NCBI RefSeq assembly: GCF_000266885.1
Contig: NC_018020.1
Location: 434,001-498,000, forward strand
Direction: 5' to 3'
Length of the DNA: 64,000 bases
DNA from: Turneriella parva DSM 21527
GTDB lineage: Bacteria; Spirochaetota; Leptospiria; Turneriellales; Turneriellaceae
Shown: positions 9,203 to 11,153 of the stretch, piece by piece
Layout of the letters: each line of letters begins with the position of its first letter
How positions within the stretch are numbered: position 1 is the first letter of the stretch
Program-made: the position numbers and the translations under genes
Notes under the pieces: model-generated
Database searches by the model: none
What the model saw: only the letters and a program-made list of their open reading frames with translations
Told to the model about the DNA's origin: nothing

Positions 9203-9469
9203 CTAAGCTTCAATAAAACTATTCTCGACCAGCGCGCAGAGGGCCGCAACTGCCTCTTCTTCTTTTTCGCCCTCAGCAATGACGGTAATGCGGGTGTCAC
9301 GCGTGAGCGCCAGCATCATGAGGCCCATGATACTCTTGCCGTTAATGCGCTGGTTGTCTTTTTCTACGAATATTTCACAGGGAAACCGATTCGCCATTTT
9401 TACGAAAACTGCTGCCGGCCTTGCATGAACGCCCGATTCGTTCTTGATTGTCGCTGTGCGTGATACCAT
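9203..9469 (-). CDS. HPr-family phosphocarrier protein
   Basis: 88 residues, standard HPr size. The phosphorylatable His lies in GVHARPAAVFV, and the regulatory Ser lies in INGKSIMGLMML, where HprK acts. It adjoins hprK by eight bases on the same strand. No EI or EII component is in the window, so a regulatory (Ser-phosphorylation) rather than sugar-transport role is likely, as in other bacteria with partial PTS (inference). Confidence 0.93.
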   Translation of the reverse strand: MVSRTATIKNESGVHARPAAVFVKMANRFPCEIFVEKDNQRINGKSIMGLMMLALTRDTRITVIAEGEKEEEAVAALCALVENSFIEA

Positions 9470-9477
9470 GGTGCCCC

Positions 9478-10416
9478 CTAGCTTTCTGCAGCCTCGCGAA
9501 TCATGCGGGAAAGCCTTTCTTGAAATTTGCGCGCCGCGTTGTGGCCGCGCGACTTGAGGTTAAAATTCTTTGCGGCCGTTTCGATCAGCACCGGCACGTT
9601 TCGGCCCGGCCTCACCGGTATTGTCATGACGGCTATTTCAACGCCCAGAATTTCTTCGGTATGGTCTTCAAGCCCCAGCCGGTCGTATTCCTTTTTGTCA
9701 TCCCAATCTTCGAGATGAATAATAAGGTCGATACGTTTGTTCATTCGCACCGCCCCGGCCCCGAAAAGGTCGCTGATGCTGATGATGCCAAGACCGCGAA
9801 TTTCGAGGTGGTGCTCGATAGTCTGCGAAACATAACCGTAAAGCCGTGAGCCGTCGCGGCAGATGATGCGCACGGCGTCGTCTGCGACGAGGCTATGCCC
9901 GCGCTGCACGAGTTCGAGCGCCGTTTCACTCTTGCCCACGCCGCTCTTGCCCTGAATCAGAATACCGACGCCCGAAACCTCAACGAGTGTGCCATGGAGC
10001 AGAGTCTGCGGTGCGAGCGCGGCATCGAGAAAATCGGTGAACACATTGATAAACTTGCTCGTGCGGTGTTCAGAAATAAAAACCGGTGTGCGGTTGCGGC
10101 GCGCGTATTCGAGAAAAAGGTCGGGGGGAAAATTAGAATGCGTGAAGACGATTCCCGTAATCGGGTAATTGAAGTAACGCTCCAGCGGCTCTTGCAGCTT
10201 TTCTGGCAAAATGCTGCTCACGAACGCATGCTCACCCTGCCCGAAGACCTGCACGCGATCGTGGGCAAAGTGTTCGAAAAATCCATTCAGTGCAAGCCCC
10301 GGGCGGTTGACGTCGATCTCGCGCAGCTCTCTGTCGAGATCGGCGTCTTCGTTGATGAGCTTCAGACGCAGCCGGTCTGCGTCTTTTAAAAGTTCGCGGA
10401 CCTTGACCGATTTCAG
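9478..10416 (-). CDS. hprK: HPr kinase/phosphorylase, apparent CTG start
   Basis: 312 residues if translated from CTG at 10416-10414. The kinase domain has the P-loop GKSGVGKSETALEL and the family signature LEIRGLGIISISDLFGAGAV. The N-terminal domain is intact upstream of the first canonical start (GTG at 10254): VKVRELLKDADRL and NRPGLALNGFFEHFAHDRVQ match the HprK N-domain. There is no ATG, GTG or TTG in that frame between the HPF gene stop and 10254. The CTG overlaps the HPF stop (CTGA), and AGAGG sits eight bases upstream. The enzyme phosphorylates and dephosphorylates HPr at Ser in response to metabolites. Confidence 0.88.
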   Translation of the reverse strand: MKSVKVRELLKDADRLRLKLINEDADLDRELREIDVNRPGLALNGFFEHFAHDRVQVFGQGEHAFVSSILPEKLQEPLERYFNYPITGIVFTHSNFPPDLFLEYARRNRTPVFISEHRTSKFINVFTDFLDAALAPQTLLHGTLVEVSGVGILIQGKSGVGKSETALELVQRGHSLVADDAVRIICRDGSRLYGYVSQTIEHHLEIRGLGIISISDLFGAGAVRMNKRIDLIIHLEDWDDKKEYDRLGLEDHTEEILGVEIAVMTIPVRPGRNVPVLIETAAKNFNLKSRGHNAARKFQERLSRMIREAAES

Positions 10417-11153
10417 ATAGCAGGCCTCTTGATCATGATACCGCCACCCTGGGCATGAAACATGACATTCAGGCGGCCAGACTCTTCGTTCACAAACGCA
10501 AGAAATTCGAGCGCCGCATCGCTGAGCACATCGAGAGCCTCGGCAACAGTGAACTTCGAGACGGGGTACACCGATTCGGCGAGCTTTTCGAGTTTATTGC
10601 CCGAGAGTCGCACGATTGTCTCAACAAAACCACCGCCGCCCGGCATGACAATGCTGTAGTTGCCATCGTTGCGGGCGGTCACAAGGCCGTATCGTTTCTC
10701 GTCGACATGGTGGTACATTAAGAAACGAAATTGTTTAGACCGCAACTGCAGCACGGCTTCGAGATCGTCCATGGGCTTAATTTCTGCATCGCGCACCTCG
10801 ATTTCAGTCTCTTCGTCTTGAACGCGGCCCGCCGCCTGGGGTATGAACATCTCTTTTACATTGGCAGTCTTCTCTTCGAACTTCTTGCGATACTTGTCGA
10901 TCTGGTTGTTCAGCACATCGAGTGCATTGTCGATCGCCGCGTAGAGGTCTTTGTCGCTCTTTTTAAGGTGAAAGACGGTGGCGTCACCGTGCACTGTGAT
11001 CTCAAAAAACTGGTTTTGCCGTTCGAGCGAGAACCGCACGTCGATGCCTTCGATATGGTGCAGCCGCTCTTTGAGCTTTTCAATCTTTTTGCCTGCATAT
11101 GCTTTGATCGCGTCGGTTGGGGGCAGATTCTTGAAATAGTATGAAATTTCCAT
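10413..11153 (-). CDS. hpf: Long-form ribosome hibernation promoting factor
   Basis: 246 residues. The N-terminal domain (about 1-95) has the HPF/RaiA fold (MEISYYFKNLPPTDAIKAYA; ITVHGDATVFHLKKSDKDLY), which binds the 30S decoding region. The C-terminal segment (SKFTVAEALDVLSDAALEFL to the end) matches the dimerising HPF tail. An extra region at about 130-190 lies between them, making it longer than usual (about 180-190). It is expected to form 100S ribosome dimers in stationary phase. Its stop overlaps the hprK start, so the two are translationally coupled and ribosome dormancy is tied to carbon signalling. Confidence 0.9.
   Translation of the reverse strand: MEISYYFKNLPPTDAIKAYAGKKIEKLKERLHHIEGIDVRFSLERQNQFFEITVHGDATVFHLKKSDKDLYAAIDNALDVLNNQIDKYRKKFEEKTANVKEMFIPQAAGRVQDEETEIEVRDAEIKPMDDLEAVLQLRSKQFRFLMYHHVDEKRYGLVTARNDGNYSIVMPGGGGFVETIVRLSGNKLEKLAESVYPVSKFTVAEALDVLSDAALEFLAFVNEESGRLNVMFHAQGGGIMIKRPAI

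Follow-up and report, generated by a model that had tools for sequence, protein, structure and literature searches.

The HPr(Ser) kinase/phosphatase gene (hprK) of Turneriella parva DSM 21527 is, to judge from profile and genome comparisons, translated from a CTG codon that overlaps the stop codon of the ribosome hibernation promoting factor gene (hpf). We estimate a probability of about 0.85 that this CTG, lying within a CTGA overlap, is the start, that it has been kept by selection against stronger starts and that reinitiation after hpf gives low, hpf-dependent production of HprK. The locus belongs to a stretch of 64,000 nucleotides (the window; NC_018020.1, positions 434,001 to 498,000) in a genome of 4,409,302 bp that consists of a chromosome and a plasmid (PMC3746428). 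The genes hpf, hprK and that for HPr follow one after another on the minus strand (Table 1). Within Hpf (10416–10799, minus strand), two tandem S30AE C-terminal domains were noted (PF16321, E-values of 1.2e-5 and 2.9e-5 when searched apart), and both segments were conserved in the eight species described below; long HPF proteins usually carry one such domain.

Table 1. Features of the hpf–hprK locus of T. parva, numbered from the first nucleotide of the window.
Feature	Position	Strand	Basis or remark
hprK, HPr(Ser) kinase/phosphatase, 312 aa counted from CTG	9478..10416	-	TIGR00679, Pfam Hpr_kinase_N and Hpr_kinase_C, PDB 1ko7 and 1knx
hpf, ribosome hibernation promoting factor, 246 aa, start ATG	10413..11153	-	TIGR00741 (62.8 bits, cut-off 40.9); PF02482 and PF16321
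HPr phosphocarrier gene (ptsH-like), start ATG; product is the expected HprK substrate	9203..9469	-	TIGR01003 (105 bits, cut-off 47.9)
Putative hprK initiation codon CTG	10414..10416	-	Sole plausible in-frame start; CTG in 8/8 species, homologous ATG in sister genera
hpf stop TGA, overlapping the hprK start as CTGA (4-nt overlap)	10413..10415	-	CTGA in 8/8 species
Predicted Shine-Dalgarno AAGAGG within hpf, spacer to CTG 8 nt	10425..10430	-	Conserved AGG, duplex energy, 16S anti-Shine-Dalgarno
GTG, earliest in-frame ATG/GTG/TTG of hprK; rejected as start	10252..10254	-	48 profile positions lost; codon varies in relatives

When HprK was read from the CTG, the NCBIfam model TIGR00679 matched residues 4–304 over model positions 1–298 with a score of 359 bits against a curated cut-off of 240, the family profile beginning at the fourth codon, whereas the form read from GTG 10254 entered the model at position 49 and scored 314 bits, i.e., 45 bits lower. 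Similarly, coverage of Pfam Hpr_kinase_N shrank from positions 1–125 to positions 51–125, and the structures 1ko7 and 1knx were aligned from HprK residues 14 and 6, respectively. Among 1,002 coding-like open reading frames scanned in 1.26 Mb of T. parva, hprK ranked first for coding signal upstream of the first ATG, GTG or TTG, and the pattern is thus not one of chance. The preliminary description had traced conserved N-terminal residues to 10416, in agreement with the profile match, and its account of the reading frame proved exact: the HprK frame, which differs from that of hpf, was open in T. parva from a TAA stop at 10596 and contained no ATG, GTG or TTG between this stop and GTG 10254. 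Also as first described, the CTG (10416–10414) and the hpf TGA (10415–10413) overlapped as CTGA, and the AGAGG motif (10429–10425) was separated from the CTG by eight bases (10424–10417). Two features expected of termination-reinitiation, an overlap of stop and start codons and an internal Shine-Dalgarno sequence, were present at this junction.

The junction was compared among eight species of genus g1 and its sister genus g6 (T. parva and G006–G012; loci L002–L008 and L010–L016), and in every one of them the hprK codon at this position was CTG, embedded in CTGA and preceded by (A/T)GAGG. The homologous codon was ATG in five species from four other genera of the family (g2–g5; L017–L021), and in four of these five it overlapped the hpf stop as TAATG. 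Thus the check that had been proposed, whether relatives keep or replace the CTG, showed it to be kept in 8/8 species and replaced by ATG in sister genera. A sequencing correction creating ATG or GTG, which had been named as grounds for abandoning the idea, was ruled out by seven other genome assemblies, which exclude a sequencing error behind the CTG. In G011 a TAA directly preceded the CTG, and in G007–G010 a TAA lay a few codons ahead of it, excluding both an upstream start and a frameshift fusion in these species; no ATG, GTG or TTG occurred within the first 300 nt of hprK in G007. The proposed start was upheld by the constancy of the CTG together with the ATG of sister genera at the homologous codon and the TAA of G011.

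The CTG species formed one side of a branch with support of 100/100, so that their agreement is the history of a single lineage and not eight independent events. The junction in L020 reads GCA GAC TAA TGA AAT CCG (L021 differs downstream) and that in G011 reads GCT AAC TGA AAT CGG; deletion of the TAA from a junction of the L020 type gives the G011 layout, a TGA stop with a CTG start, in one step. A single event, the loss of TAA from a TAATGA overlap of the kind found in sister genera, probably gave rise to the CTG state. In other genera of the class, hprK frequently began with TTG or GTG (L022, L024, L025, L026, L034 and L037), in several cases after a strong Shine-Dalgarno sequence, a pattern that would fit widespread weak initiation of hprK in the class.

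The C of the CTG closes the last hpf codon, which was ATC, AAC, GCC, GTC, GCC, GCC, GTC and GCC in the eight species; the encoded residue varied and the C was constant. Fourfold-site divergence of hpf and hprK between species pairs was 0.48–0.73, which places synonymous sites near saturation. The third base was invariant in only 1 of 233 other columns that were fourfold degenerate in at least six of the eight species, and in none of the 233 was it C throughout; of the 101 columns in which at least three different residues occurred, it was invariant in one. Thus C was retained in 8/8 species of one clade where synonymous sites had diverged and where any other base would have created ATG, GTG or TTG, each a stronger start. 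The AGG codon of the Shine-Dalgarno sequence, representing a codon that accounts for 6.4% of arginine codons, was likewise constant in 8/8 species, and of the 23 invariant arginine columns it was the only one with an invariant codon, the other 22 having none. In G012, AAGAGG was replaced by ATGAGG with the 8 nt spacer. That both C and AGG were retained while synonymous sites elsewhere approached saturation points to purifying selection on the CTG and its Shine-Dalgarno sequence, an argument that draws its strength from the length of the tree and not from independent origins. Low HprK output is most likely what the C has been retained for.

Predicted energies of the duplex with the anti-Shine-Dalgarno were −5.6 to −5.8 kcal/mol in the CTG clade, −1.7 to −3.2 kcal/mol in the ATG relatives and −6.3 to −9.0 kcal/mol for distant hprK genes of the class that start with TTG, as if weaker start codons were paired with stronger Shine-Dalgarno sequences; single energies mean little, since 20-mers of the hpf background averaged −2.9 with a standard deviation of 2.3. 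The Shine-Dalgarno sequence of the CTG clade is probably a feature that compensates for the CTG start.

In the mechanism proposed here, ribosomes that end hpf at UGA would reinitiate one base back on CUG, with the help of AAGAGG and with ordinary fMet-tRNA decoding the CUG. Termination-reinitiation has been shown where stop and start codons overlap (PMC6728339), and coupling of hprK to hpf is a reasonable inference from the four-nucleotide overlap. As CUG pairs poorly, few of the terminating ribosomes would go on to make HprK, which would keep HprK low relative to Hpf and make its production depend on hpf translation; selection would hold the C against A, G and T, each of which would yield an excess of HprK. 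CUG represents 0.024% of bacterial starts and supports 0.86% of AUG efficiency in E. coli (PMC11497404). A low dose of HprK, by analogy with E. coli, would agree with these CUG data as well as with the conservation pattern, and CUG may be less weak in Turneriella than in E. coli. The 16S anti-Shine-Dalgarno of T. parva, GGATCACCTCCTT, was present and normal, the anticodon arm of the initiator tRNA, GGGCTCATAACCC, was normal with three G-C pairs, and infC started with ATG; thus an altered initiator tRNA, an altered anti-Shine-Dalgarno and an oddity of IF3 autoregulation were sought in T. parva and none was found.

That HprK begins instead at GTG 10254 and that the similarity upstream is untranslated is highly improbable. 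This GTG is the first start found if open reading frames are called with ATG, GTG and TTG only, but its use would drop 48 conserved profile positions, and the 54 codons ahead of it showed protein-level conservation in all species. Across relatives the codon at 10254 was GTG, ATG, CTG, ATA, TTG or ATC, and a start there is excluded since several of these relatives have no start codon at the site; the ATG of sister genera, moreover, sits at the position of the CTG. No greater probability attaches to a Hpf-HprK fusion made by programmed frameshifting ahead of the hpf stop, which would accord with the overlap of the two frames and with the open HprK frame upstream in T. parva. The in-frame TAA directly before the CTG refutes such a fusion for G011, the TAA codons of G007–G010 speak against it as well, no slippery site of the form X XXY YYZ was seen ahead of the hpf stop, and outgroup hprK genes start with their own ATG.

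Two other explanations accept the CTG as the start. It is unlikely that its C is held by an mRNA hairpin covering the start and not by the weakness of the start. In RNAalifold predictions the C lay opposite an invariant G in 8/8 species, within a hairpin that in most species carried the CTG in its 3' arm, and the CTG was mostly paired in seven of eight single-sequence folds. Folding of this hairpin nevertheless did not exceed that of synonymous-codon controls in stability (mean z −0.06), and a single pair covaried (covariation term 0.14). Thus a conserved regulatory hairpin across the start was unsupported beyond what the encoded residues give; the predicted hairpin may add to hpf–hprK coupling. 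Less likely still is a neutral choice of start, in which Turneriella would initiate easily on CUG and AUU and the CTG would have been kept by chance. Further probable non-canonical starts in the genus (ATT or ATC for truB in seven species and CTG for thiG in three) fit this explanation, but at such divergence a third base free of selection would not have stayed constant, given the single invariant column among the 233 comparable ones. Only a handful of candidates emerged among the 1,002 open reading frames, and the initiator anticodon arm, the infC start and the anti-Shine-Dalgarno all look normal. The preferred reading is thus a CTG start kept by selection for weak initiation.

Genome-wide statements cover 1.26 Mb of T. 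parva and 1.19 Mb of G010, and a comparison of 203 orthologous genes between the two yielded two good cases beyond hprK, namely truB and thiG. In truB (T. parva C1:1279475-1280362, minus strand, outside the window; loci L171–L177 and L183), ATT stood at the start of the conserved sequence. The apparent start was ATT in six Turneriella species and ATC in one (G012), with no ATG, GTG or TTG upstream in these seven, and a Shine-Dalgarno sequence was not evident. In most of the other genera, ATG or GTG lay a few codons ahead of this site. An apparent CTG start of thiG (T. parva C1:2063890-2064675, minus strand, outside the window; L184, L189 and L190) overlapped the stop of the preceding gene, and this CTGA layout, similar to that of hprK, was found in T. 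parva, G011 and G009 and differed in other species. From the truB and thiG cases, non-canonical starts appear to be rare in the genus yet not limited to hprK. Coding sequence ahead of the first ATG, GTG or TTG was also seen in a short-chain dehydrogenase-like open reading frame, INTDKKIAFITGASSGFGA (T. parva C1:212797-213600, minus strand, outside the window), for which ATC is a possible start.

Conservation of the hprK CTG suggests that evolution has favored a low amount of HprK. CTG starts are already known, but they are rare, and a codon that makes up approximately 0.02% of bacterial starts, kept genus-wide where any other base would be stronger, offers a clear example from nature of selection for inefficient initiation. 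Gene callers limited to ATG, GTG and TTG would trim 54 residues off HprK in the genus, and annotations and structure models of HprK may consequently be missing the beginning of the N-terminal domain. A wider and rather doubtful idea is that Turneriella is unusual in tolerating or exploiting non-AUG initiation. The weak starts of hprK and thiG (CTG) and truB (ATT or ATC) would then be kept for low or condition-dependent output and, with hprK tied to hpf translation, carbon control would follow the hibernation state.

No earlier report of conserved CTG starts or of hprK starts was found in the literature searched, the scope of which left many subscription papers outside. The hprK genes of sister genera within the same GTDB family resemble that of Turneriella in the order of hpf and hprK and in the position of the start but start with ATG, which in most cases forms a TAATG overlap, and have a weak Shine-Dalgarno sequence. 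Among better known systems, infC of E. coli, which encodes IF3, has a conserved non-canonical AUU start that limits output and is autoregulated through discrimination by IF3. Both infC and hprK thus have conserved non-canonical starts, although IF3-specific discrimination is not expected at hprK and infC of Turneriella starts with ATG. The four-nucleotide ATGA, GTGA and TTGA overlaps described previously (PMC6728339) are like that of hprK in that the upstream stop shares bases with the next start and that a Shine-Dalgarno sequence lies within the upstream gene. They differ in the first base of the start, which is C in hprK; CTG does not occur in the text of that study, and coupling at hprK is what we infer from the shared layout. 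A weak start in a regulator of carbon use is also found in lacI of E. coli, which begins with GTG, and in other carbohydrate regulators, the GTG starts of which are maintained by selection for a low dose of the regulator (PMC11445065). The hprK gene differs in its far weaker start, CTG, in encoding a kinase/phosphatase and in that selection on it is read from sequence comparison; by analogy, these GTG starts are nevertheless the closest parallel to the CTG start of hprK.
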